The notes below the pieces were generated by a model. It was not told the DNA's origin and searched no databases. It worked only from the letters and a program-made list of their open reading frames with translations. DNA of 64,000 nucleotides from Denitromonas iodatirespirans (GTDB lineage Bacteria; Pseudomonadota; Gammaproteobacteria; Burkholderiales; Rhodocyclaceae), in NCBI RefSeq assembly GCF_018524365.1, contig NZ_JAEKFT010000020.1, positions 1 through 64,000 of the forward strand. The letters run 5' to 3'. Positions 2,230-44,580 of this stretch are shown here, piece by piece (position 1 is the stretch's first letter; each line of letters opens with the position of its first letter). A program made the position numbers and the translations under genes.

Positions 2230-3591
2230 CTATTTGGGGGTTTTGACCGGGCGCTTCCAGCCCGGAATCGTCATTTGCCGGGCGCGCGAGACGGTGAGCT
2301 GCTCGGCCGGCGCATCCTTGGTGAGCGTGGTGCCGGCACCGAGCGTGGCGCCACGGCCCACGCGCACCGGCGCCACCAGCTGGGTGTCGGAGCCGATGAA
2401 CACGTCGTCTTCGATGGTGGTGCGGTATTTGTTGGCGCCATCGTAATTGCAGGTGATGGTGCCGGCGCCGACATTGACCCGCTGGCCGACGTCCGCGTCG
2501 CCCACATAGGCGAGGTGATTGGCCTTGGAGTGGTCGGCGATGCGGCTGTTCTTGACCTCGACGAAGTTGCCCAGGTGCACGTCCTCACCCAGCTCGGTAC
2601 CGGGCCGGGTGCGGGCGTAGGGGCCGATCACGCAGGCGGCGCCCATGGTGGTGTCTTCGATATGGGAGAAGGGCAAGATGCGGGTGCCAGCGCCGATGCG
2701 GGCGTTGCGGATCACGCAGTGGGCGCCGATGTGCACGCCTTCGCCCAGCGTCACTGTGCCTTCGAACACGCAGTTCACATCGATGCGCACGTCGCGTTCG
2801 CAGCTGAGCTCGCCGCGCACGTCGATGCGCGCCGGGTCGGTCAGGGTCACGCCGGCATCGAGCAGGCGCTCGGCGCAGGCGCGCTGGTAGCGGCGCTCCA
2901 GGTCAGCCAGCTGGCGGCGGTTGTTGACGCCGAGGGTTTCATCGACGGTGTCCGGCTGGGTGGCCACGACCGGCACGTCGGCGGCCACCGCCATGGCGAT
3001 GATGTCGGTGAGGTAGTACTCGCCCTGGGCGTTGTCGTTGCCGAGCCGGCCGAGCCATTCGCGCAGCCGCGCGGTGGGCGCGGCGAGAATGCCGGTGTTG
3101 ACCTCGCGCACGGCGCGCTCGGCCTCGGTGGCGTCCTTGTGCTCGACGATGCGCAGCACCTTGCCGGCAGCGTCGCGCACGATGCGGCCGTAGCCGGTCG
3201 GGTCGTCCATCTCGACGGTGAGCAGGCCGAGGCGGTCGCGGTCGGCAGCGGCCAGCAAGCGGCGCAGCGTGGCCTCGCCGATCAGCGGCACGTCGCCGTA
3301 GAGCACCAGCGTGACACGGTCGTCGTCGAGATGCGGCAGCGCCTGCTGCACTGCATGACCGGTGCCCAGTTGTGGCGTCTGCAGCGCCCAGGCCAGATCG
3401 GGCGCCGCCATGGCGTCGCGGACCACCTCGCCGCCGTGGCCGTACACCACGCAGATTTTCGCCGCGCCAAGCGTGCGCGCCGTGCCCAGCACATGGGCCA
3501 GCATCGGCCGGCCAGCCAGCGGTTGCAGCACTTTGGGCAAGGCCGAGCGCATCCGGGTACCCTGACCTGCAGCGAGAACCACGACTTGCAT
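2230..3591 (-). CDS. glmU: Bifunctional GlmU: GlcN-1-P acetyltransferase / GlcNAc-1-P uridylyltransferase
   Basis: This enzyme makes UDP-GlcNAc from glucosamine-1-phosphate, acetyl-CoA and UTP. The 453-residue protein has the expected two halves. The N-terminal nucleotidyltransferase domain carries [11 protein letters not shown] near residue 6. A left-handed beta-helix made of imperfect hexapeptide repeats fills the C-terminal half and includes the family segment [16 protein letters not shown] ribosome site precedes the ATG. It is the first gene of the glmU-glmS pair and diverges from maoC-pta across a 196-bp promoter region. Confidence 0.97.
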
Positions 3592-3689
3592 GACAACTCC
3601 ATTTTTTCGGGATTTGCGGCGGATTCTAGCACGCAGCCGTCTACGCTTCCGTGAGCGGTGTCTCGCTCATGGCCGACAACACGGCTCGA

Positions 3690-3737
3690 ACATTTTGCAA
3701 TGCACCAAAGTATTGATCGTGGTCTACATTTTGCAAT
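3690..3737. promoter_or_regulatory. Pair of identical 12-bp direct repeats between glmU and maoC-pta
   Basis: ACATTTTGCAAT occurs at 3690-3701 and again at 3726-3737, start-to-start spacing 36 bp. The pair sits in the only gap between the divergent glmU and maoC-pta genes. Two exact copies in 196 bp suggest an operator for a dimeric regulator, but I cannot name the regulator. Confidence 0.4.
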
Positions 3738-3787
3738 AGCGTGACGACTAGAATGAGTTTGCTGCAACGCACATAGGAATCTCAGCC

Positions 3788-5200
3788 ATGCAACGGGCCG
3801 TCCACCAGTACATCGAGAACCGCACCTACGACGAAATCGCCATCGGCGACCAGGCGCGCCTCGTCCGCACCCTCAAACCCAACGACATCCATCTGTTCGC
3901 CGCGATGTCGGGCGACGTCAATCCCACCCATGTCGATCCGGAATTCGCCCGATCGAGCCAGTTTCGCGAGGTGGTGGGCCACAGCATGTGGGGCAGCACA
4001 CTGTTCTCCACCATTCTGGGCACCGAGTTCCCCGGCCCGGGCACGGTGTACATCACCCAGTCGCTCAAGTTCTGGCGCCCGGTGGGCATTGCCGACACGC
4101 TGGAGGTGACCGTCACCTGCCGCGAAAAATACGATCACAACTCGCACATCGTGTTCGACTGCGTGGCGATCAACCAGGACGGGCTGAAGGTGATCGACGG
4201 CACCGCCGAGGTGCTGGCGCCGACCGAGAAGATCAAGCGCCCGCGCGTGAGCCTGCCGGAGGTGACCATCTCCGACAAGGAGTTGCGCTACCAGCACCTG
4301 CTGTCGCTCACCACCGGCCTGAGCGCGGTGCCGACGGCGGTGGTCCACCCCTGCGACGCCTCGTCGCTGGGCGGACCGCTGCAGGCGGCCGAAGAGGGGC
4401 TGATCATCCCGATCCTGGTCGGCCCGGAAGCGAAGATCCGTTCGGTCGCTGAAGAAGAAGGCTTCGACCTGACCGGCCTTCGCATCGTCGACGTACCCCA
4501 TAGCCACGCTGCGGCCGAAGCCGCCGTGGCGATGGCGCGCAAGGGCGAGGTCGAGGTGCTGATGAAGGGCTCGCTGCATACCGACGAGCTGATGAGCGCG
4601 GTGGTCAGCCGCACCCATGGCCTGCGCACCGCGCGCCGCATCAGCCATGTGTTCATCGCCGAGGTGCCGACCTATCCGCATCCGCTGCTGATCACCGATG
4701 CGGCCATCAACATCGAGCCGACGCTCGAAGAGAAGGTGGACATCGTCCAGAACGCCATCGATCTGGCGCAGATCATGGGCATCGTCGAGCCCAAGGTGGC
4801 GATCCTGTCGGCCGTCGAAACCGTCACTTCCAAGTTGCGCTCGACCATCGACGCGGCCGCCCTGTGCAAGATGGCCGACCGCGGCCAGATCAAGGGCGGC
4901 ATCCTTGACGGCCCGCTGGCCTTCGACAACGCCATCTCGCTGCTGGCCGCCAAAACCAAGGGCATCAATTCCGCCGTGGCAGGCAACGCCGATATCCTGG
5001 TGGTGCCGGACCTGGAATCGGGCAACATGGTGGCCAAACAGCTCGAATATCTGGCCGATGCGGTGCTGGCCGGCGTGGTGGTCGGCACCCGCGTACCGAT
5101 CGTGCTGACCAGCCGCGCAGATACCGCCGAGGCGCGCGCCGCCTCCTGCGCCATCGCCCAACTCATGGCCCATCATCGCCGCGCGGTGGTGCCGCAATGA
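3788..5200 (+). CDS. MaoC-like dehydratase / phosphate acetyl(butyryl)transferase fusion
   Basis: This 470-residue protein has two parts. Residues about 8-150 are a hot-dog-fold MaoC domain, seen in FAAMSGDVNPTHVD and in VVGHSMWGSTLFS. Residues about 155-470 are a PTA/PTB domain of the shorter phosphate butyryltransferase type. The family is annotated as bifunctional enoyl-CoA hydratase/phosphate acetyltransferase. It would exchange CoA for phosphate on acetyl- or butyryl-CoA, feeding the acetate kinase encoded next. An AGGA site precedes the ATG, and its stop overlaps ackA in ATGA. The natural acyl chain length is not settled by sequence. A link to polyhydroxybutyrate turnover is possible but is inference. 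Confidence 0.9.
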   Translation: MQRAVHQYIENRTYDEIAIGDQARLVRTLKPNDIHLFAAMSGDVNPTHVDPEFARSSQFREVVGHSMWGSTLFSTILGTEFPGPGTVYITQSLKFWRPVGIADTLEVTVTCREKYDHNSHIVFDCVAINQDGLKVIDGTAEVLAPTEKIKRPRVSLPEVTISDKELRYQHLLSLTTGLSAVPTAVVHPCDASSLGGPLQAAEEGLIIPILVGPEAKIRSVAEEEGFDLTGLRIVDVPHSHAAAEAAVAMARKGEVEVLMKGSLHTDELMSAVVSRTHGLRTARRISHVFIAEVPTYPHPLLITDAAINIEPTLEEKVDIVQNAIDLAQIMGIVEPKVAILSAVETVTSKLRSTIDAAALCKMADRGQIKGGILDGPLAFDNAISLLAAKTKGINSAVAGNADILVVPDLESGNMVAKQLEYLADAVLAGVVVGTRVPIVLTSRADTAEARAASCAIAQLMAHHRRAVVPQ

Positions 5201-33964: not shown

Positions 33965-36739
33965 CTAGTCATTGGCGAGAAACTCAATCGACTCAACTGA
34001 AAAGGCATGGCGCTGCCCTCTTTGGCCGCCATAGCCCCCCCAACCCAACATCAGTTCCTTCACGTTCTCGAGATCAAGCTGGCCGTTGTCATCTCGGGCC
34101 CAAGGAGCCGGCCGCGCCAGATTAAAAAGGCCGGTCAGGGTATCCCCATTGCCGCGGCCCTTCGTTAGATCGACCAGCCATATTCCGCCACTGCGCTCGA
34201 CAAGCTGCAAAAGCAGCGGCGTCGGAGGCGGGCTCATGCCGGTAACATGACTGACCGTAGTTCGCAACCCTCTCGCCGAACTCAGACGCTCGCCACGCAC
34301 AGCAGTGGCCGGGAACACCCAAGTTTCACCGCTTTTACGCACACGGCTAACGATCTTCACAGGCGGGCAATCGTGCCCGCCAGAAGGCAGTCCATCGACC
34401 GCCAGATCGACATTCCGGGAGGCTCGCCCTACCCACACGGGACACTCGCCGACAGGAGAAACAGACAGATACGGCGCGCGTACCGCAGCGGCGTCAGGAA
34501 TGAGCGCCACGCGGACCACATCGGACCAAGACCCCCGCACAGCCGTGGCCGAAATATAGCTTTCACCGACCTTTGAAAGCGCACTCCTGAAACGGCAGTT
34601 AAACTCCGCGCCCCCTTCTGAAATCCGATCCACCGAGATTTCAGAACGAGAATCAAGGGTCAAACCTGGGCCACTAGAACAGAGCACCTTTGCGGAATTT
34701 GTACCACCTCCGTTGTCGGAAAAAAGCCGTCCCGTAATCTCAACCACATCGCCATCCCCGACCTCCACCGCAATCCGGTTCTTCTGGCCAGGATCGGGGG
34801 CCACGCCGGCCACCAAAACCTTTGCGCTGATCCTCAACTGCGGCAGGGCTTGCCGACGCGTCATTGGCAAGGCAACAGTGCTTGCCGCGGGAGGGAGTGC
34901 AGATATCCCAGTCATGAGGATGGGCGAATCCGGATGCCGTCGCGACCACTCACCGTCAACTGGCCTTCCGAAAACATCGGTCGCCGCAATTGAACTGCCG
35001 AATCGCGCAGGGTCATCTCCACCCCACATCACCGCAACATAGTCACCAGCACCCCGTCGAAAGTAGACGATCCGACCCTTGCCCCGCGCCTCGACGCCCG
35101 CTAGCACTGCGCCGGCGAGATGCCTGCTCAGCAAACCAAGGGCGAAATAGGCCGGACGTGGAGAGAAGTCCTCACGGATCACCCCCCATGTATGCAGTTC
35201 CGCCTCTACAAGCTCGCGCCAGAAAAAAAAGAAGACCCGCTCATAACCCGCGGCGACCCCCCTGACATAGGTCTTGGCGAGGTAGTCGGCCTGCGCCAAC
35301 TCCGCTGCACGCCAGCCACCCCCACCATCTCGCCGCAAGGAATAGCCAATTTCAGTCAACCACCCAGGGCGCTCCGCCACGCCACCGCCCACTTCGATCC
35401 CGCGGACATGATCAGCATAAAACCGACCGAACTCTCCCGCGTCTCCATAGAAATGCTGATTGCGCACATCGAAAAACGGGCCCACGCCGTTGCGGTATGT
35501 TTCCTCGAAGAACCGCCCCGGCTTACCCGCTGCCGCGCCGATCAGAACGCGAATTGCCGGATCCACCGACCTCACTCCGGCACTGAAAGCCTTGAGCCCG
35601 CTCGCGTACTGAAACGGATAGCCGGCAAAGAAATTGCTGTTCTGCTCGTTCCAGTACTCCACGCTCCGCGCCAACCGCCCCAAGCCGGCCGCGTAAGCAC
35701 GCCCAAACTCAAAAGCAGCCGCATCATCCCGCGGAGGCAGACGATCCGCCGGGCCCGACGCCTTACCCCGAGCCCACGGCGGTGAGTCGTGAAACACCTG
35801 TACAACATCCAGCCCTGCCCCTGTTGCAACCGATGCCACCTCCGCATGAACACCCCAATCCGTCTTCCCCCGAGCCGGTTGCGTTCGGGTCCAGCTCAAA
35901 CGGTCGCGCAATGAACCCACGCCAGCGAGCCGCATCATCGCCACTGATCGTTCGACCATCGCGGGGGGCCCGCCGTACCAGCTCAACGCCGCATCCATGC
36001 CAAAGCGAGGCTCGTTCGGCACATCGCCCGGCGGTAACACCGCCACGGCGCCGGAAACCGCAGCGGCCCGGCCTCCGGCAGAATCGACGTGGAGACGGGC
36101 ATCGTAGTAACCCGGCGGGAGCACCCCAAAATCCAGCACCAGCGGCGACTCTGGGCGATAAGAGCCGGTCTGGACATCCACCGTCTCACCATCCACATCG
36201 AACAACTCCAACCGCACACGCCCTTCAACAGACGACGGAACAAGTTTGACCGACCACTTGGCCGAGCGCCCGTCGGTAATGACGCCATTCCCGGCCGCGC
36301 TCAGCGTCGCCACAACCCCACGCACCACCTGCAGGCCGCCAATCTCCCACCGGCCGTCAGCCTCCAACATCGTGCTTTCAGTCGCCGCCGCAACCCTTAC
36401 CTGTGTCGCCCCCGCGGGAACGGGTATGGACACATCGAGCACCGCCCCAGAAAAGATCCCCAGCCACGGCCCCTGACGCGCTCGCCAAAGCCGGCGCCCA
36501 CGTTGATCGTAGAACACTGCATCTACATACCCACGGGCGCGCACCAAGGAGGACGCGAGCACGCCCGACAAATGGAGCGCGCGCTCATCCTCAATGGCGC
36601 ACACCTGCCAACGAGATTCCGACACGCCCTTCGGCCTGGCCTCTGTGAACAGCGCCTCAGGCGTCGCGCAGCGCAGTGCCACCACCGGCCCCGCCATCAG
36701 CAACGCACAAAAGAGAAACAGCACGCGAACAAAACTCAT
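33965..36739 (-). CDS. Secreted TIM-barrel glycoside-hydrolase-like protein of the EPS locus
   Basis: With the ATG at 36739 this is 924 aa and starts with a signal peptide (MSFVRVLFLFCALLMAGPVVA). That start overlaps the stop of the upstream GT2 by one base; the 43 upstream codons are not protein-like. A beta-sandwich precedes a (beta/alpha)8 domain (about 240-560) similar to clan A hydrolases such as GH39, GH42 or GH5. Candidate catalytic acids are Glu365 in EYWNEQNSNFF and Glu463 in GWLTEIGYS, 98 residues apart. Further beta-rich domains fill the C-terminal half. It probably trims or remodels the polymer in the periplasm or outside. The exact family is not assigned. Confidence 0.75.
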   Translation of the reverse strand: MSFVRVLFLFCALLMAGPVVALRCATPEALFTEARPKGVSESRWQVCAIEDERALHLSGVLASSLVRARGYVDAVFYDQRGRRLWRARQGPWLGIFSGAVLDVSIPVPAGATQVRVAAATESTMLEADGRWEIGGLQVVRGVVATLSAAGNGVITDGRSAKWSVKLVPSSVEGRVRLELFDVDGETVDVQTGSYRPESPLVLDFGVLPPGYYDARLHVDSAGGRAAAVSGAVAVLPPGDVPNEPRFGMDAALSWYGGPPAMVERSVAMMRLAGVGSLRDRLSWTRTQPARGKTDWGVHAEVASVATGAGLDVVQVFHDSPPWARGKASGPADRLPPRDDAAAFEFGRAYAAGLGRLARSVEYWNEQNSNFFAGYPFQYASGLKAFSAGVRSVDPAIRVLIGAAAGKPGRFFEETYRNGVGPFFDVRNQHFYGDAGEFGRFYADHVRGIEVGGGVAERPGWLTEIGYSLRRDGGGGWRAAELAQADYLAKTYVRGVAAGYERVFFFFWRELVEAELHTWGVIREDFSPRPAYFALGLLSRHLAGAVLAGVEARGKGRIVYFRRGAGDYVAVMWGGDDPARFGSSIAATDVFGRPVDGEWSRRHPDSPILMTGISALPPAASTVALPMTRRQALPQLRISAKVLVAGVAPDPGQKNRIAVEVGDGDVVEITGRLFSDNGGGTNSAKVLCSSGPGLTLDSRSEISVDRISEGGAEFNCRFRSALSKVGESYISATAVRGSWSDVVRVALIPDAAAVRAPYLSVSPVGECPVWVGRASRNVDLAVDGLPSGGHDCPPVKIVSRVRKSGETWVFPATAVRGERLSSARGLRTTVSHVTGMSPPPTPLLLQLVERSGGIWLVDLTKGRGNGDTLTGLFNLARPAPWARDDNGQLDLENVKELMLGWGGYGGQRGQRHAFSVESIEFLAND

Positions 36740-37749
36740 CAGCCCGGCGCCGACCGACGCAGTCCAATAAGAACAGAAAGCATCATCCAGGCGCGCGACC
36801 ACTGCCCCTGAGCCACCCGGCGCACCACCTGCAGCAACGAAAAAAGATAGACCGTCGGCAACGCCCACCGGAAGAACTTGCGGGTGACCACCAACCTGTT
36901 TCGGAGCGCGTAATACTCGGCCAGCGCGCTACGCCTTGCGCTAGTGCCTGAACCCAGCACCGCCCCTTCCTTGTGATAGACGACGGACTCGGGTGCATAC
37001 CCAAGACGAAAACCACAGCGTCGACCGCGCTCCGCCCAATCGATTTCCTCATAGTAGAGAAAATAGTCTTCACTCATCAGTCCAACACGGTCCAGAAACG
37101 AGCGCGTCACCAGCATTGACGCGCCGGACACGTACCGCATCTCCCGCTCAACCGACTCCCTATCAACCACGCGAGGCCACAGCGTCCCATTACCAATTTC
37201 GCGCACCGCCCCGGTCATCGGAACGTACACCGCGCCGCCCTGCGCCTGAACCGTTCTCCTGTCATGCGCGTAGACCAGCGTACTCCCACAAATTCCGACC
37301 ATTGGATCTTGAGTCACTCGTTCAACCAAGCGAAGCAAGCTATCGGGCGCCACCTCGGTGTCGTTATTCAGAAACCAGACAAAATCGGTGTCAACATCGC
37401 TGCGGGCATGCCGATACGCAAGGTTGTTACCACCAGCAAAACCCAAGTTAGCGACAGCAGCCACAAAAGTGACTCGAATCGCTGACAATTCGCCGCGACA
37501 AACTGAATAATAATCAAAAATTCGACTTCCATCTGTCGCTGCTACACTCCTAACTCGTTCCGAGTACCTCTCTGAAAGAAAGGCTCGAAGTCTGTCGACG
37601 GAATCGTCTGGAGAGCCGTTATCACAAACAACGGCATACCAATCCTCATTAGCAAGACGTTCCAAACTTGCAAGACAAGCGCACGTATCGGCTGCCCTTT
37701 TCCAGTTCACTAGAATTATCTTGCAAACCATCCCAGTCTCACATTCCAT
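36739..37749 (-). CDS. Glycosyltransferase family 2
   Basis: The 336-aa enzyme has CKIILVNWKRAADTCACL, VVCDNGSPDDS, the FLNNDTEVAPDSL donor motif and MRYVSGASMLVTRSFLDRVG with YFLYYEEIDWAERGR. These are features of polysaccharide GT2 enzymes with rhamnosyl- or glucosyl-type activity. A hydrophobic stretch near residues 295-310 may attach it to the membrane. An in-frame ATG six codons downstream is an equally possible start. It lies 42 bp below the polymerase gene and is coupled to the secreted hydrolase. Confidence 0.87.
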   Translation of the reverse strand: MECETGMVCKIILVNWKRAADTCACLASLERLANEDWYAVVCDNGSPDDSVDRLRAFLSERYSERVRSVAATDGSRIFDYYSVCRGELSAIRVTFVAAVANLGFAGGNNLAYRHARSDVDTDFVWFLNNDTEVAPDSLLRLVERVTQDPMVGICGSTLVYAHDRRTVQAQGGAVYVPMTGAVREIGNGTLWPRVVDRESVEREMRYVSGASMLVTRSFLDRVGLMSEDYFLYYEEIDWAERGRRCGFRLGYAPESVVYHKEGAVLGSGTSARRSALAEYYALRNRLVVTRKFFRWALPTVYLFSLLQVVRRVAQGQWSRAWMMLSVLIGLRRSAPG

Positions 37750-37791: not shown

Positions 37792-39369
37792 TTAGGCCAT
37801 CAGAGCGGGCTTGGATGTTGCCGGCGGCCGGTTAAACTCATCTCGACTGCCAGATATTCGCGCCACAGTCAAACCCATCAAAGAAAACAAAATATAGTTA
37901 TTGTCATGGAGCGACAAAACCAACTTGAAAATCAGCATCGAAAGAACGGCAGCACCTACAACAAACCAGAACAGCCAATAATCAGAGCCGCCTACAAATG
38001 CCAATCGAAACGCCCCAAAAACAATCGACACGGACATGGCAAAGAAAAGCATGACTGCAAAAAATCCAGAGTCAACCATGTATGAAATATAAAGACTGTC
38101 GACTGTATAGTTCGATACTCCTGTGCCGGATGGAGTCCCCACCAGATCGGCAGCCATACCTACGCCATAGCCGAGAATGGGGGAATCCATAGTTTTCGCC
38201 ACCCCCCTCTCAAGCATGATAGCTCTAGCAGAATTACTGGCGGAGTACGCCTTCTCACCGAAGGCATAGTCATACACAAGCATCGCCGTAAAGCTCAGCG
38301 CTGTACAAATAGCAATTAGAGCGAAGCACCAACCGACGCTGGCAGTTAGCGACAATCGTTTCCGGAAGATCGCGTTTGCGAGTGGCGCGACCACCAACAG
38401 CGATGCGACAACAGCGACGGCGCCGTACCCTGCCCTTGACCCGGCAAAGATCACCATAGCAATACCCATAACCCCAAACACCGCGCCCCCAAACCAACGA
38501 AAAAGGCTCTTCTTCCATTGAGAAGCTATAAAAATTGACGCTCCCGCACCAACAGAAGCGAATTCAGCAAATGTTAGCGGGTGCCCAAAAGTACTCTGCA
38601 CTCGATATGACCCGCCTCTCGCCTTTTCGCTCAGCGCCCATTGAACATATGCGTTGGACGGGTCCACGAACGAAGAAAATACATTTCGCCCAATGTAAAA
38701 CTCAACAATCGCAACAAAAAAACAAACCACAAATCCAACAGAAACAATCTTCATAAATAGCTTTGAGAGGCGCCAATCGCTGCCGAGGATCACCCCCAAA
38801 AGAACAGCAATGACGTGAACAACCATTTCGTTTACCAACTGATAGGCACTTGATGCAACGTTTTCTGAGCCAGCGGCAGACACTGTTCGAAACAATACAA
38901 ACAGCATAAGAAAGATCCAAAATACACGGTGCGACCGCATTGACCAACCGACTTCTGCGCGAAACCAGCGCGAGGCTACCGCCCCCCAAAGAACCATGGC
39001 AACAAAAAGCACCCCTGCAATCCTTTGCACGTTGATTGACGGCAACCCGGGAAGCCAAACAGCGACGTAACGTGGCCAGACGATGCTTGATATGATATAG
39101 AGCAGGCAAGAAAGGATGGCTAGCCGTCTAAATTTCGACTCAGCCTGGTCTCTTCCAATATATGCAGCGAAGAATATGCACGCCACAAATCCGAGAGGAA
39201 CAATTAGGATTTGAAAAAACCCCATGGAAATCAAAACCGCAGACACAACAGCAAGAACGACGAACGATAGGATTACAAAAAAATTCACAACCTTCCCCCC
39301 GACAAACGGGCTCCTCACTGCTTCCCAGTCACCACCGCGAACAGACGGGCGCGACATCATCGACGGCAT
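37792..39369 (-). CDS. Wzy-like polysaccharide polymerase (O-antigen ligase family)
   Basis: This 525-residue inner-membrane protein has about 12 hydrophobic segments and one large periplasmic loop (about 375-435) with SNSARAIMLERGVAKTM and PILGYGVG, the pattern of O-antigen ligase/polymerase proteins (Wzy_C type). In a Wzx/Wzy-type locus it would join repeat units on the periplasmic side. The gene is the most AT-rich of the locus, a usual sign of exchanged polymerase genes. Polymerase rather than ligase is inferred from context. Confidence 0.82.
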   Translation of the reverse strand: MPSMMSRPSVRGGDWEAVRSPFVGGKVVNFFVILSFVVLAVVSAVLISMGFFQILIVPLGFVACIFFAAYIGRDQAESKFRRLAILSCLLYIISSIVWPRYVAVWLPGLPSINVQRIAGVLFVAMVLWGAVASRWFRAEVGWSMRSHRVFWIFLMLFVLFRTVSAAGSENVASSAYQLVNEMVVHVIAVLLGVILGSDWRLSKLFMKIVSVGFVVCFFVAIVEFYIGRNVFSSFVDPSNAYVQWALSEKARGGSYRVQSTFGHPLTFAEFASVGAGASIFIASQWKKSLFRWFGGAVFGVMGIAMVIFAGSRAGYGAVAVVASLLVVAPLANAIFRKRLSLTASVGWCFALIAICTALSFTAMLVYDYAFGEKAYSASNSARAIMLERGVAKTMDSPILGYGVGMAADLVGTPSGTGVSNYTVDSLYISYMVDSGFFAVMLFFAMSVSIVFGAFRLAFVGGSDYWLFWFVVGAAVLSMLIFKLVLSLHDNNYILFSLMGLTVARISGSRDEFNRPPATSKPALMA

Positions 39370-39391: not shown

Positions 39392-41632
39392 CTACGCCGA
39401 AAACTGAACCATCACCTCTTCAAGCGGCTTCCTCGTCGACTCTGCAACAGCCAGCTCTTCCGGCAATGCACCAACCGCCAGCAGCATGATGACCGTTTCG
39501 CTCTGCGGCATTTTCAGGAAACGCTTGAGTTCCATATCTCGCCGATACTCCATGCTCCAGTTCAGGCAGCACGATCCCAGCCCGAGGGAGTGCAGCGCGT
39601 AGATCAGCGACATGGCAAACAAACCACCGTCAATCCAGGATTGATATCTCTCACCAGGGGATTGAAAGTTGCATAGATCGGAGGTAACCACGATCACCTT
39701 ATTGACCTGCTCGGCAAAACCGCGCGCACCTTTTTGGATATCGAGAACCCGGGCTATGTCCTCGGAGCCCGAGACAATCCACGCGCGCCCGGATTGCCGG
39801 TTGCACACCGCCGGCGTCTTTTGCGCGCGACGCACCGCTTCTTCGATCAGAGCCATCGGCACGTCAACCGGTGCGAACTGGCGGATACTGTAGCGTTTCA
39901 TAAAAAAGTCGGCACCCACGCCGGCCACCGCCGCCTCGATTTCGTGACGTGGGAGTGCCTTCACGCCACCGCCGGAGGGTAGGGGACCGAGTGCGTTGGT
40001 ATAAGCCTGCTCAAACGCGGCCACGCGGCTTTCGAGCGCCGGCTTTTCAACACCCTGCTGACGATTGAAGTCGAGATAGGCGTGCAATGCGTTGAGCGGC
40101 ACGCTCAGGTGTGCGGCGGGGCCATACTTGTCGAGGTAGCGCGAGAGATGATCCAGTAGCGTGTCGATGGCGGCGACGCCAAAGCCGGGCCTGGGATTGT
40201 GGAGCGACAGGCCTTTTTCGATGCTGTGGTAGTGAATCGTGATGAGTGCGCGCAGTTTTTCTTCGGAATCACCGCGAAATACTGACGACGAAAACCGCGA
40301 GTACCGCCAAAAATCGTATCCGCTATTCACCAGCAACAACGCTAGCCGTTTAACGACTTTCGCGGCTTCCGCGACGGGGTGCGGCAGCACAGCCCGCAGC
40401 AGGCGCTTGGCGCCGGACTCGTCGGTCACGGAGGAAATAGCATGTGCCCCCCCTCGTGCCCCAGGCAGGAGTGTGCTGAGTTGATCCGTGTAAGTTTCGA
40501 GTTTGGTGCGAGCTACGCGATTTCCGGCCTCGACTTCGACAAAAAGGTCGCTGCGACGCTCAAATGCTTCGATAAACATGTTCAGTGCGGCCGGGGTGTC
40601 GAGAGCGAGGCAATCAATCACATGACGATAGTCGAGCGAATTGAACAAGCCATTGAATTTTCGGCTATAGGCCATTGGCAAGACAGGAACACCGACCGAG
40701 AACGCCGCAATACACGCATGCATACGGGCGCCGGTAAAAAAATCCATGCCGGCAATGAAGCTCTTAGCTTCGCTTGGTGACTGAAAGCGCGGTGCAAGCC
40801 GGAGTGCGGGATAGCGCTGAATCAGACCTTGGCTGGCGCGAAGATCGTCCTCGGTTTCAGAGGCATCGGAAATAACGTGGGGGACAAGGTATACGTCAAC
40901 ACCGGGCTGAGCGAGCAGGTATTCGCAGACGCCGTCGATCAAGGCGCGATAGTCGACGGTGAGCTTGAACTCGTTGCTTCCACTATACCCGCCGTTATAG
41001 AGCAGACCGGAAACGTTGAGCCCGACGTTGACGGGCCCACCTTCGGGCCGCACAGGGCGGACGAACGGCAAAGCGAACGCGACATCAATGACTTCAGCAG
41101 ATTTTCCACGGTAACGGCTATTTTGCAGAACGTCCATGGACAGGTGGTCTCGTGCGTAGATACGACTCGCGGCACGCATGGCGACCGAGCCAAGAAACTT
41201 CCCGAAAGATGACTTGAATGGACCGATGGTCTGGGGCGAAAGCACCAGGGGCTTTCGAAACAGTCGAACCAGCAACTTGGCAAACACCTGAATCGCCAGC
41301 CGTTTGTTGCCATAGATATCGGAAAAGCTGTCGCCTTCGCCAATATCAAAAACAATATCGCAGTGACGCAATAGCGAAATTGCCTCGAAATGGCCAGATT
41401 TGAACGCTCGCAAGGCAAATTCAGCCGTTCCGACAACGTCGAAACTCTCGACAGAATATGGCGTACCGCCACGCGTCCCGATCACAACAAAGCGGGTGGA
41501 GAGGCCTCGGCGGCGTGCCGCTTCGGAAATCACGGCCATCTGCCCCAAGGTTAACGCGCCAACGCCAAGGTTGTCGGACGATATCGAATGCCACAACAAT
41601 CCAACAGTTAGTGTTTTTACCGGTTCAGTCAT
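39392..41632 (-). CDS. Polysaccharide pyruvyltransferase fused to a nitroreductase-family domain
   Basis: This 746-aa protein joins two enzymes. Residues about 8-380 are a polysaccharide pyruvyltransferase of the CsaB type, with SISSDNLGVGALTLGQM, VFDIGEGDSFSDIYGNKR, PLVLSPQTIGPF and TGARMHACIAAFSVGVPVLP. A linker with NSGYDFWRYSRFSS and IHYHSIEKGLSLHNPRPGFG follows (about 435-555). Residues about 570-746 are an FMN-type nitroreductase domain: MKRYSIRQFAPVDVP, KTPAVCNRQSGRAW, and LHSLGLGSCCLNW. The frame is uninterrupted. The ATG at 41632 is used, with GTG one codon above. The first domain should add a pyruvate ketal to a sugar. The redox substrate of the second is unknown. Confidence 0.88.
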   Translation of the reverse strand: MTEPVKTLTVGLLWHSISSDNLGVGALTLGQMAVISEAARRRGLSTRFVVIGTRGGTPYSVESFDVVGTAEFALRAFKSGHFEAISLLRHCDIVFDIGEGDSFSDIYGNKRLAIQVFAKLLVRLFRKPLVLSPQTIGPFKSSFGKFLGSVAMRAASRIYARDHLSMDVLQNSRYRGKSAEVIDVAFALPFVRPVRPEGGPVNVGLNVSGLLYNGGYSGSNEFKLTVDYRALIDGVCEYLLAQPGVDVYLVPHVISDASETEDDLRASQGLIQRYPALRLAPRFQSPSEAKSFIAGMDFFTGARMHACIAAFSVGVPVLPMAYSRKFNGLFNSLDYRHVIDCLALDTPAALNMFIEAFERRSDLFVEVEAGNRVARTKLETYTDQLSTLLPGARGGAHAISSVTDESGAKRLLRAVLPHPVAEAAKVVKRLALLLVNSGYDFWRYSRFSSSVFRGDSEEKLRALITIHYHSIEKGLSLHNPRPGFGVAAIDTLLDHLSRYLDKYGPAAHLSVPLNALHAYLDFNRQQGVEKPALESRVAAFEQAYTNALGPLPSGGGVKALPRHEIEAAVAGVGADFFMKRYSIRQFAPVDVPMALIEEAVRRAQKTPAVCNRQSGRAWIVSGSEDIARVLDIQKGARGFAEQVNKVIVVTSDLCNFQSPGERYQSWIDGGLFAMSLIYALHSLGLGSCCLNWSMEYRRDMELKRFLKMPQSETVIMLLAVGALPEELAVAESTRKPLEEVMVQFSA

Positions 41633-41638
41633 CACAAC

Positions 41639-42973
41639 TCAGCTTTTCAACTTCAAAATAAGTGTTGCCGCCAAGATTGACGCAAAAACTGCAACACCAA
41701 GACTCGGCCGTGTACGCACCCCTTGACGTTCCACCCACACCCAAAAGCCGATTGAGAGAAACGCATAAGCAACGGAAATGGCCAGAATCATGCCAGTCAA
41801 ACCAAACGCTTCTACAAAAGGAAACGCAGAGGCCACCATCAATGCCAATGCGACCAGAAAAAGCTTGGCACGTACGGTCTGCCCACCAAGGGCGGTCACA
41901 GTAATTCCCTGAGACGCCGCAATGAAACGTATCAACACAAGCAAGCCAAACCAAGGCATAAGGGCACCGACATCTTGAAGGCTGGGCTCAGGGTAGATCC
42001 ACGCTTGTCCTTCGGCGCCAATGACGAACACTCCGCACACCGCAAAAGCAATAGCAAGCGTCGACCAGTAGAGATTGCGCGCGAGCAGTCCGAACTCCAC
42101 AGGATCCTCAGCGGCCCGGGCCATCCGGGGTAGGAAGATGCCGGCAAAGATAGAGGGGAGCAATGAGGCGCCTTGATAAAACCTTGCACCCGCTTGGTAC
42201 ACGCCCACGCTTTCATAGCCGAGCAGAATAGCTAGAAGCACTGTGTCCAGATTTGCAAATGCGGTCGCCACTCCAACATCGAGACCGTATGCGCCCCCCC
42301 CCCGCATCACCGGCCACACGGCTCCAAACCTGACATCAACTTTGATGCTTCCAGGTACGTGGCGTCGGAACTCGACCACAGTGGCCAATAGGTGCACGAT
42401 GCGGCCGAGAACCATCGCAGCGGCGACACCGGTTCCCTCTGCGCCAAACAAGACGGCGGCGAGAGCCAAGCCAAAATAGGCAACATTGCCTTCAAGCGTA
42501 ACGCTAGCTTCTTTGCCGTAATGCCCCAGCGCGCGAAAGCAGGCCATCAGAAAATCGCTGTACGACATCAACGTCGCAGCCAGCAACAGCAACCCTAGCG
42601 TTGCGGCCCCGTCAGCCCGGAGCCCCGTCACCAAGGCGAATATGCCCGCGAAAATCCACGCAAACATTGTTAGCCACAGCTTAGTTGCAAAATAAACGCC
42701 CATTCGCTGCCGCGTAGTGTCCGGGTCGCGGCCTATTTCTCGGAGAATTTGCTGGGAAAATCCGTATTCGCAAACCTGGACAAGCAGTCCGGCGACGGCA
42801 AAGAAGTACATAAACTCGCCGAAACGCCCTGCGCCCCATTCTCGCGCAATGAGTACGAACAAGACGAATCCGGTCAACAGCCGGATCAGTGTCGACATCC
42901 CCAACACTGTGAATTGCTTGATCAAGCGCGGCCCCGTGTGCCCTTGCCGCGGTGTATCAGTCGAGCTTGGCAC
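41639..42973 (-). CDS. Wzx-like oligosaccharide flippase
   Basis: The 444-aa protein is all membrane helices (about 12) and belongs to the MATE/MVF-type polysaccharide export group. It would flip the undecaprenyl-linked repeat unit to the periplasm. Seen are LIKQFTVLGMSTLIRLLTGF, IAREWGAGRFGEFMYF and YQAGARFYQGASLLPSIF, which fit flippases of O-antigen and EPS loci. The GTG at 42973 gives a 17-bp overlap with epsI and has no clear ribosome site. Met26 is an alternative start. Confidence 0.85.
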   Translation of the reverse strand: MPSSTDTPRQGHTGPRLIKQFTVLGMSTLIRLLTGFVLFVLIAREWGAGRFGEFMYFFAVAGLLVQVCEYGFSQQILREIGRDPDTTRQRMGVYFATKLWLTMFAWIFAGIFALVTGLRADGAATLGLLLLAATLMSYSDFLMACFRALGHYGKEASVTLEGNVAYFGLALAAVLFGAEGTGVAAAMVLGRIVHLLATVVEFRRHVPGSIKVDVRFGAVWPVMRGGGAYGLDVGVATAFANLDTVLLAILLGYESVGVYQAGARFYQGASLLPSIFAGIFLPRMARAAEDPVEFGLLARNLYWSTLAIAFAVCGVFVIGAEGQAWIYPEPSLQDVGALMPWFGLLVLIRFIAASQGITVTALGGQTVRAKLFLVALALMVASAFPFVEAFGLTGMILAISVAYAFLSIGFWVWVERQGVRTRPSLGVAVFASILAATLILKLKS

Positions 42974-43664
42974 GATCGCCGATCAATACCGCACGGTAGC
43001 GCGGTTCAAGTGCGAGCAGGAGCGCGTTTACGAAATCGTCCTGAAGCCGATACGAGCTCTCGTTGTCCGCGTTGATTTCCGAAACACGAAACAGAATGCC
43101 GTCAGGAATCGTCCCCTGAATCCCGTAGCCAATACGCGCCAAATTCTGTTCGACAGCACCGCGCACCAACTCATCGCCCAAGCGAATCCAGTAGGTAACT
43201 GGCTCGACACGAGAGCCGAGCTGAGTCAACACTCGCATCACCGGCAGTGGCCGGGCTTCAAATACGATTTCATCTTTGCGCCGCTCCACAACAAGAAAAC
43301 CTTGCGCGGGGTAGCAAACCTCGGGCTTATGTATCTGATTGTCACGAGACTGGTCTTCGCCATAGGCGAGAGACAGCATGATTCGGCGCCCTTCTGGACC
43401 GACATAGGTCCGCGCCAAGGTTTGGCTGTAGATGCGGTTGATCAGTTGGTCTTGCTGAGGGTTGACCACACTAGCGACTCGGGACGGATCAACACGCCAC
43501 TCTCCAAAACGCGCGGGGATTATTTCAGCAAGATCCATCTGGCCCATTTGGTCGACCTGCCGCGTACGCGGGGTAATTGCCGCGGAAAGCGCAACCATTG
43601 CGAGCATGAGGAGTGCGGCAAGAATGGCGTTTTTGAGGCCCCGGCGAGTACGAGCGATAGTCAT
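42957..43664 (-). CDS. epsI: Exosortase-associated protein EpsI, B type
   Basis: EpsI proteins accompany exosortases and are thought to assist EPS export or exosortase action in the inner membrane and periplasm. The 235-residue product has an N-terminal anchor (about 10-30) and then the family features IPARFGEWR, a Y-G-E-D segment (LSLAYGEDQSRDNQIHKPEV) and CYPAQGF. It overlaps xrtB by 4 nt, the usual xrtB-epsI pairing. Confidence 0.92.
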   Translation of the reverse strand: MTIARTRRGLKNAILAALLMLAMVALSAAITPRTRQVDQMGQMDLAEIIPARFGEWRVDPSRVASVVNPQQDQLINRIYSQTLARTYVGPEGRRIMLSLAYGEDQSRDNQIHKPEVCYPAQGFLVVERRKDEIVFEARPLPVMRVLTQLGSRVEPVTYWIRLGDELVRGAVEQNLARIGYGIQGTIPDGILFRVSEINADNESSYRLQDDFVNALLLALEPRYRAVLIGDRAKLD

Positions 43665-44542
43665 GCGGCGGCCCGTCCTTTGACGCCGATACGCAACACA
43701 GAATCGGCGGCGATGATGAGCAGCAAGGCACTGACAAAGAGCGCCATGCCAGAGAAACCGTGCAAGAACCCCTGCCCTGCTTCGTCGCCGAGATGGTAGG
43801 TAATGAGCGTGAGCACCATGACGCGGATGACGTTGGCGGTGAAGCTGATGGGGACGATGAGGATGGCGAGCGTGATGTTGCGCAGTACCGAGGCGTGGCG
43901 CACCACGTTGAGGTAAAGCAGGCCGAGGGCTTCGAGCGTAAACAGGGTATGCAGGCCGGCGCAGGCGTCGGCCACGAGCAGTTGGTATTGACCGATCTGC
44001 AGCATGACGCCGGTGCGGGCGATGGGATAGCCGGCGGCGTAGAGGACTTGCTCGGCCACGTAGCTAACGGCCATTTTCATGGGGGCGGTGAGCGTATCGA
44101 CGACGACGCCGGGCAGCGGAATCATGAAGAGCATGAAGAACAGCGCGAACCACATGAGGCGCACCGCTGCAGGGCCACGCAGGAGCAGGAGCAGGCCGGC
44201 GATCATCCACACGAGCGAGCCGACTTCAAAGATGAGGATGCCCTGCGAGCGGCCGAGGGCGTAGAACAGGCCGGCGACGATCATCACGGGCCAGGCCAGT
44301 GCCGGCCTGGCGCCGCTGGCGGGCATGCTTGCCAGTGCCTGCCATTTGCGCGACACCAGCCACACCGACAGCCCGAGCACGATGGGACCGTGCGCCTGCT
44401 CGTCGGTCGACCAGATGGTACGGAACAGGTCGACGAAGCTGGGCACATACATGATCGCCAGCCCGAGGGCGACGATCAGCCAGGGGGCGAGGTCGGCGCG
44501 GCCAGGGGCTTGGGCGGTGGGGCTTGAGGCGGTGACAGTCAT
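43661..44542 (-). CDS. xrtB: Exosortase B (PEP-CTERM transpeptidase/processing enzyme)
   Basis: This polytopic inner-membrane enzyme (293 aa from the ATG at 44542) cleaves PEP-CTERM proteins. The presumed catalytic triad of the family is visible: Cys194 in VADACAGLHTLF, Arg240 in TANVIRVMVLT and His261 in GFLHGFSGM. About eight membrane helices are present. An in-frame GTG four codons upstream is an alternative start; neither has a clear ribosome site. Substrates are likely the proteins at 25433-26182, 49129-49665 and 59403-60284. Placement between epsG and epsI marks the B-type system. Confidence 0.94.
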   Translation of the reverse strand: MTVTASSPTAQAPGRADLAPWLIVALGLAIMYVPSFVDLFRTIWSTDEQAHGPIVLGLSVWLVSRKWQALASMPASGARPALAWPVMIVAGLFYALGRSQGILIFEVGSLVWMIAGLLLLLRGPAAVRLMWFALFFMLFMIPLPGVVVDTLTAPMKMAVSYVAEQVLYAAGYPIARTGVMLQIGQYQLLVADACAGLHTLFTLEALGLLYLNVVRHASVLRNITLAILIVPISFTANVIRVMVLTLITYHLGDEAGQGFLHGFSGMALFVSALLLIIAADSVLRIGVKGRAAA

Positions 44543-44580
44543 GGCGTTGGGCACATCTGGCAGTGGTGATGCTGCCGAGG

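Follow-up and report, generated by a model that had tools for sequence, protein, structure and literature searches.

Why should a polysaccharide pyruvyltransferase (PPT) be encoded in one reading frame with a nitroreductase-type flavoprotein (NTR)? The question is raised by a 64,000-nucleotide stretch of the Denitromonas iodatirespirans genome (contig NZ_JAEKFT010000020.1, hereafter the window), in which a minus-strand frame at 39392..41635 runs for 747 codons from a GTG start without an internal stop, the PPT half first and the NTR half second. An initial annotation made from the sequence had read this frame as two whole genes merged into one and had suggested that a flavin enzyme in an exopolysaccharide (EPS) locus hints at an undescribed sugar or ketal modification. 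A Pfam search of the 747-residue protein, with hits kept at E up to 0.01, returned both families that the annotation had named, PF04230 at residues 80-324 (E 2.5e-30, 106.8 bits against a cut-off of 25.3) and PF00881 in two stretches of which residues 635-722 were the best (E 4e-14, 53.6 bits against a cut-off of 23.5), and no further domain. The suggestion of a modification is strengthened by the survey described below, in which the NTR is found near-constantly as a partner of PPTs and most PPT relatives that lack it have an FrhB-type flavoprotein instead. We propose from sequence comparison and from analogy with characterised enzymes that the window protein is probably a two-step enzyme that makes a lactyl ether in an EPS pathway.

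Pairing of PPT and NTR genes across genomes

The pairing of PPT with NTR is real and widespread. A scan of contigs with an alignment of NTR sequences matched 211 relatives, and the best 80 of the 211 were kept and examined; a contig scan with the single 747-residue protein as query found no relative, and a first alignment of 18 rows was too diverse to serve as a search query. Judged by their record titles, the 80 loci were distributed over about 12 phyla, including an archaeon and with cyanobacteria well represented, and 76 of them contained a PPT. When the NTR loci were pooled, leaving out L089 and L129 as contig duplicates of L059 and L061, a PPT was present in 107 of 111. It was adjacent and on the same strand in 78 of these, 60 in the order NTR>PPT and 18 in the order PPT>NTR. 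The corresponding same-strand adjacency counts were 56 for the Wzx flippase, 10 for family 4 glycosyltransferases (GT4) and 4 for family 2 glycosyltransferases (GT2), which occurred anywhere in the locus in 89, 83 and 70 cases, respectively. Adjacency was measured between matched parts (700 bp) and, owing to partial matches, some direct neighbours are scored as non-adjacent; the loci were 3.2 to 20.1 kb long with some cut by contig ends. Ten PPT matches, mostly low-scoring, were rechecked and all ten were PF04230 above the cut-off. Each of four further NTR loci contained a PPT, which adjoined the NTR on the same strand in two, was separated from it by Wzx in one and lay on the opposite strand in one.

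PPT and NTR were separated by one gene, Wzx, in four Bacillota loci (L104, L108, L118 and L127), a planctomycete (L099) and a cyanobacterium (L086), and Wzx also lay between them in L241. These PPT-Wzx-NTR sets match the gene content of the window, and the flippase, a frequent third member of the set, may recognise the modified repeat unit specifically. The PPTs found beside an NTR were diverse, most alignment rows being 15-45% identical to the window PPT, and the NTR was rare per genome (for example 16 of 325 and 6 of 369 genomes in two scans). Among plasmids, 49 records were matched, 24 of them from Rhizobium, and two regions were opened, one an adjacent pair (H1) and the other a stand-alone gene (H15).

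PPTs taken at random mostly had no flavoprotein neighbour, and the NTR therefore marks a subset of PPTs. As a control, PF04230 was found in 24 of 120 genomes of the phylum and 28 loci were fetched, which hold the 29 matches other than that of the window. An NTR was present in two of these loci (L214 and L223, both already in the NTR survey), FrhB in none and neither in 26, with the weak NTR match of L217 (26.9 bits) scored as without NTR. Our own PPT profile missed four of the 28, all of which were found by PF04230. The annotated Escherichia coli colanic-acid cluster with WcaK also contained neither NTR nor FrhB. The window protein thus resembles the PF04230 enzymes CsaB, WcaK and Pvg1 in its Pfam score, an Arg-x-His stretch aligned with Pvg1, a likely phosphoenolpyruvate (PEP) donor and an EPS locus beside Wzx, and differs from them in that its PPT is joined to a flavoprotein with which its relatives are paired.

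Exchange of the NTR for FrhB-type flavoproteins

The closest relative of the window PPT (L042, 66-67% identity) adjoins an FrhB-type flavoprotein (PF04422 and PF04432) and a Wzx, with no NTR in its locus. With the window protein as query, 17 PPT loci lacking an NTR were found. FrhB was present in 13 of them and was the next gene in nine, a count that includes L042, where PPT and FrhB are convergent, whereas it was present in 1 of 111 NTR loci (Fisher p 1.5e-13). A flavoprotein stood near 13 of 17 window-like PPTs against 2 of 28 random PPTs (p 2.7e-6). Nine FrhB ORFs (open reading frames) were checked in Pfam and all nine contained both PF04422 and PF04432, and a CxxCxxC motif was located near the N-terminus in each of the seven that were inspected. 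FrhB/FdhB-type proteins are thus like the NTR in standing beside PPTs related to that of the window, its nearest relative included, and unlike it in belonging to other Pfam families and in carrying the N-terminal cysteine motif. PF04432 had no match in the genome of the window.

In a tree of 86 PPT rows the window grouped with L042 (99, starred) and the label NTR or FrhB changed at least seven times; the tree was built with FastTree only, gave long-branch warnings and left out rows below 200 residues and the near-copies L197, L199 and L201. Exchange was also seen within a single species. The E. coli O150 O-antigen locus has the order rfbBDAC-NTR-wzx-PPT, in the O69 locus FrhB occupies the position of the NTR and its PPT neighbour is related in DNA sequence, and an IAI1-type locus reads wzx-FrhB-PPT, where the O150 and O69 labels are taken from flippase annotations and one strain name. 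The O150-type NTR was found in 8 of 5,426 E. coli genomes. Because a flavoprotein of another family repeatedly replaces the NTR, the two would appear to act together with the PPT in one and the same redox reaction. FrhB relatives that reduce exocyclic vinyl groups are known (BciB).

Two loci are of separate interest. In L157 (Ancylobacter koreensis) a full FrhB gene at 3542-4720 directly follows the PPT, the only such case among the 111 NTR loci, and this locus is possibly a transitional state of the partner exchange. In E. coli 2017.04.03CC (L166) a PPT was located with glycosyltransferases and an EpsG-type gene in a transposase-rich island adjoining intZ inside the eut region; the set is away from the usual O-antigen site and looks degraded. 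One E. coli DNA search matched nothing other than a PPT fragment in such an island, and two others gave no match.

The NTR and PPT halves

The initial annotation had described both halves as intact, and this was borne out by the presence of the motifs it quoted, the conservation of family residues, confident structural models and full-length free-standing relatives of each half. The NTR half (39392..40429, minus strand) comprises residues 403-747 when a possible internal GTG is taken as its start, and free-standing NTR relatives align inside residues 404-746. Its AlphaFold model has a nitroreductase fold and a mean predicted local distance difference test (pLDDT) score of 95.3, and Foldseek matched it to flavin mononucleotide (FMN) nitroreductases, iodotyrosine deiodinases and a cyclodipeptide C-C oxidase (E 3.8e-10 to 3e10). 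The profile score and the fold agree in placing it in PF00881. The stretch RxSxR (residues 581-585, 39881..39895, minus strand), which we take to be the FMN phosphate site of nitroreductases, has both arginines invariant and the serine in at least 90% of the alignment, and the PAVCNRQ stretch (608-614, 39794..39814, minus strand) is the start of a conserved PSVCNRQS region in which P, V, C, N and R of PSVCNRQ are invariant in 50 aligned rows. Several of the matched structures hold FMN, and the NTR half is predicted from these structural matches and the invariant arginines to bind it as well.

Ahead of the flavoprotein core is a helical N-terminal domain (39941..40411, minus strand) that lies mostly outside the best Protein Data Bank (PDB) matches, which covered approximately 170-230 columns of the 339 residues. 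Scaled to the query, TM-scores were about 0.43, and scaled to the target they reached 0.85, which places around 160 N-terminal helical residues outside the structural matches. The region with YHSIEKGLSL had been taken for a long linker between the fused halves. The resemblance that was noted to the front part of free-standing NTRs is correct, while the linker label is rejected, since matches to free-standing NTRs reach back to residue 404 and the region is therefore the NTR's own N-terminal domain. It contains an HxxEK motif (His470, Glu473, Lys474; 40214..40228, minus strand) that was invariant in 50 aligned NTRs and was present in 102 of 102 NTR ORFs, among them that of the window and those of two duplicate contigs, as counted by text match with position unverified. 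One of the two genome-scan patterns includes HxxEK and the conservation in the scanned loci is thus partly a product of selection.

The PPT half (PF04230; 40451..41635, minus strand) comprises residues 1 to approximately 395 and was modelled with a mean pLDDT of 88.3. Free-standing PPT relatives align inside residues 2-423, most ending near 390-399. The model matched UDP-GlcNAc 2-epimerases and glycosyltransferases, which points to a GT-B-type fold. In an Arg-Met-His stretch (304-306, 40718..40726, minus strand) Arg304 and His306 were invariant in 25 aligned rows and are presumably the catalytic residues of pyruvyltransferases. Yeast Pvg1 was the one PDB sequence that the PPT profile found within the E limit of 0.01 (E 0.0013), and in this weak local match its RLHAHI is aligned with the Arg-Met-His stretch. 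The retained arginine and histidine are in agreement with the profile score in assigning the half to PF04230, and the loss of active-site residues that could have contradicted the initial annotation was seen in neither half.

A candidate route to lactyl ethers

In the route that we propose, the PPT half would move an enolpyruvyl group from PEP onto one hydroxyl of a lipid-linked repeat-unit sugar and would halt at the enolpyruvyl ether. The FMN-bound NTR half would then give a hydride to the exposed C=CH2 to leave a 1-carboxyethyl (lactyl) ether, not a pyruvate ketal, and the neighbouring Wzx would flip the finished repeat unit. Elsewhere each activity would have a gene of its own, the two usually side by side, with an FrhB-type protein instead of the NTR in some lineages. 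We incline slightly towards the wider proposal that lactyl (muramic-acid-like) ethers are also made outside peptidoglycan synthesis, by a second and widespread route. In roughly a dozen phyla a PF04230 enolpyruvyl transferase and an interchangeable flavin reductase (HxxEK-type NTR or FrhB-type) would together modify lipid-linked repeat units, and the window would hold a version of this route as one bifunctional polypeptide.

Enolpyruvyl transfer and flavin reduction each have a counterpart in a characterised system. MurB reduces an enolpyruvyl group to a lactyl ether by flavin chemistry. The transfer of enolpyruvyl from PEP by MurA is described in passages of an earlier paper (PMC6801904), and the order of enolpyruvyl transfer and flavin reduction to a lactyl ether would be the same here. 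MurA acts on a nucleotide sugar and not on a lipid-linked glycan, and neither a MurA nor a MurB domain was found in the window protein by Pfam at E up to 0.01. PEP use and a lipid-linked acceptor have been shown for a relative of the PPT half, as CsaB is stated in passages of one report to use PEP, to exchange PEP protons and to act on a lipid-linked disaccharide (PMC6030368). For the reduction, passages on FbiB describe a C-terminal NTR domain that converts the enolpyruvyl group of dehydro-F420-0 to (S)-lactyl using FMNH2 (PMC6450877). FbiB is like the window protein in its NTR superfamily, in the reaction proposed here and in being a two-domain enzyme of which the NTR is one half. It differs in its partner domain, a glutamyl ligase that Pfam did not find in the window protein, and in sequence, as the NTR profile reached FbiB chains weakly (E 8.8e-4, last of 50 matches). 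Because the profile similarity is weak, FbiB is a precedent for the chemistry and the window protein is not placed in the FbiB type.

Lactyl ethers are present in several bacterial polysaccharides. Passages of a study of 79 Klebsiella capsule (cps) loci report that types K8, K22, K37 and K66 have pyruvyltransferase genes and no pyruvate, and that two nitroreductase genes and one F420-hydrogenase gene occur in the 79 loci, in K types left unnamed there (PMC4616057). K22 contains 4-O-[(S)-1-carboxyethyl]-glucuronic acid, according to the title of a reference cited in a second paper, whose passages also state that the K37 cps equals that of K22 apart from an acetyltransferase and that the capsules differ only in acetylation (PMC3857182). 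Passages on cyanobacteria describe nosturonic acid, 3-O-[(R)-1-carboxyethyl]-glucuronic acid, in Nostoc commune (PMC6017307) and 4-O-(1-carboxyethyl)mannose in Cyanospira (PMC8466920), both from strains that differ from the cyanobacterial genomes searched here. A lactic-acid ether, Man4Lac, is described for a Salinivibrio surface sugar in the passages concerned. No lactyl-ether gene is mentioned in the passages on LL004, K. oxytoca, Proteus/Klebsiella, the K22 phage or Psychrobacter.

Alternative explanations

Several observations weigh against the lactyl-ether route. A product structure has been seen for none of the loci shown to carry PPT and NTR together, and the Klebsiella passages name neither the K types with nitroreductases nor what K8 and K66 carry. 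Adjacency alone fits an NTR acting on the PPT product or on another part of the repeat unit, and enzymes of the NTR family catalyse other reactions, dehalogenation and C-C oxidation among the PDB matches. The two partners are also not inseparable. Four of the 80 NTR loci had no PPT, two on uncut stretches (L121 and L156) and two on cut or short contigs (L084 and L151), and 4 of the 17 PPT relatives had neither an NTR nor a detected FrhB, one of them on a short contig (L052). On plasmid pRL9b4 of Rhizobium leguminosarum a member of the NTR subfamily (L202, 5926-6933; 37% identity), the stand-alone plasmid gene mentioned above, has neither a PPT nor an EPS gene among its 14 annotated neighbouring features, and HxxEY replaces HxxEK. 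Genes for an ABC transporter and a racemase are located beside it. Because of this gene and the four loci without PPT, the NTR subfamily is not exclusively a PPT partner. As Wzx adjoined the NTR in 56 of 111 loci, part of the closeness of PPT and NTR is moreover ordinary EPS-locus packing.

The main rival to the lactyl-ether route holds that the PPT forms an ordinary pyruvate ketal and that the NTR oxidises or reduces another sugar or substituent of the same repeat unit, the polymer needing both. It would accord with the ketals made by PF04230 enzymes in the passages cited for MurA and CsaB (PMC6801904, PMC6030368), with the chemical versatility of NTR-family proteins and with the packing of many genes, Wzx among them, into EPS loci. 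The PPTs beside an NTR are however so diverse that the tie is to the PPT as such and not to one polymer, NTR and FrhB are seldom found in one locus and seem to substitute for each other, and random PPT loci mostly lack both, and we consider this rival unlikely. A different function, raised by the initial annotation, was that the fusion ties the pathway to redox state, with the NTR half sensing the state of the cell and adjusting pyruvylation accordingly. Flavoproteins can in general sense redox state. The exchange of the NTR for a protein of another Pfam family is nevertheless easier to reconcile with a reaction common to both than with a common sensor role, the NTR keeps the invariant residues typical of an enzyme family and Pfam found no further domain in the protein. 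No support for redox sensing was found; it was rejected as the main function and appears very improbable.

Status of the fusion

The lactyl-ether route does not depend on the single frame, as the functional pairing of PPT and NTR stands with or without a true fusion. The single open frame reported in the initial annotation is present in the assembly, and each half matches full-length relatives as the proposed merger of two whole genes would have it. The fusion itself is uncertain. In the models a joint of about ten residues (roughly 394-403) separates the final helix of the PPT half (361-395) from the helix that opens the NTR half (from approximately 410), and exactly in this joint is a run of seven C on the plus strand (40447..40453; seven G on the coding strand). 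The 64 kb window has three G/C runs of 7 or longer, this one included. Removing one base would leave a PPT of 402 residues whose TGA stop overlaps the in-frame GTG by 4 bp, giving two overlapping genes, and adding one base would give a PPT of 428 residues. Exactly this 4-bp overlap was present in 4 of the 18 listed unfused PPT>NTR pairs.

No second fusion was found among the ORFs of 134 loci, where the genes were separate and usually neighbouring, and the window ORF was the only one matched by both profiles. Long NTR frames in L076, L063 and L065 were rejected as fusions as they contained only nitroreductase domains, and long PPT frames in L067 and L101 were rejected as the NTR was in a different reading frame. 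It is therefore conceivable that the joint reflects a difference in homopolymer length, that is, two genes with a 4-bp overlap that are read as one through a one-base error or a recent slip in the run. This explanation falls a little short of an even chance in our estimation. Against it, the assembled sequence shows no break in the frame, no evident ribosome site is spaced normally from the possible internal GTG start (read by eye), and gene fusions can themselves arise by such a slip. A real fusion would hold the labile enolpyruvyl intermediate near its reductase.

Gene content of the window locus

The window locus is an EPS cluster, and its PF04230 gene was the sole PF04230 match in the 5.18 Mb draft genome (201 contigs). 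Its Wzx, Wzy_C, glycosyltransferase and XrtB genes are on the minus strand. A Wzx-type flippase (41639..42973) is located directly upstream of the PPT-NTR frame and a Wzy_C/O-antigen-ligase-type gene (37792..39369) downstream, followed by a family 2 glycosyltransferase (36739..37749). The cluster also includes exosortase B (XrtB, 43661..44554) with an EpsI gene at 42957-43664, and a frame of 967 residues (33965-36868) with a weak glycosyl hydrolase 42 match below the cut-off. Within 39395-41635 the G+C content was 0.55 for the PPT half and 0.59 for the NTR half and the window mean was higher at 0.64; lower G+C is common for exchanged polysaccharide genes. In the same genome the protein of an 868-residue frame (G000:C137:56066-57208) has two partial nitroreductase matches.

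Implications for polysaccharide biosynthesis

Among the matches listed in a search of openly licensed literature, no nitroreductase or FrhB gene was tied to lactyl ethers and no account was given of lactyl-ether synthesis outside peptidoglycan. A conserved pair of PPT and flavoprotein with a clear chemical logic would make the origin of these ethers testable. If the route is correct, the automatic annotation of this group of pyruvyltransferases as ketal-forming would be put in question, and lactyl ethers would become predictable from genomes by polysaccharide chemists.

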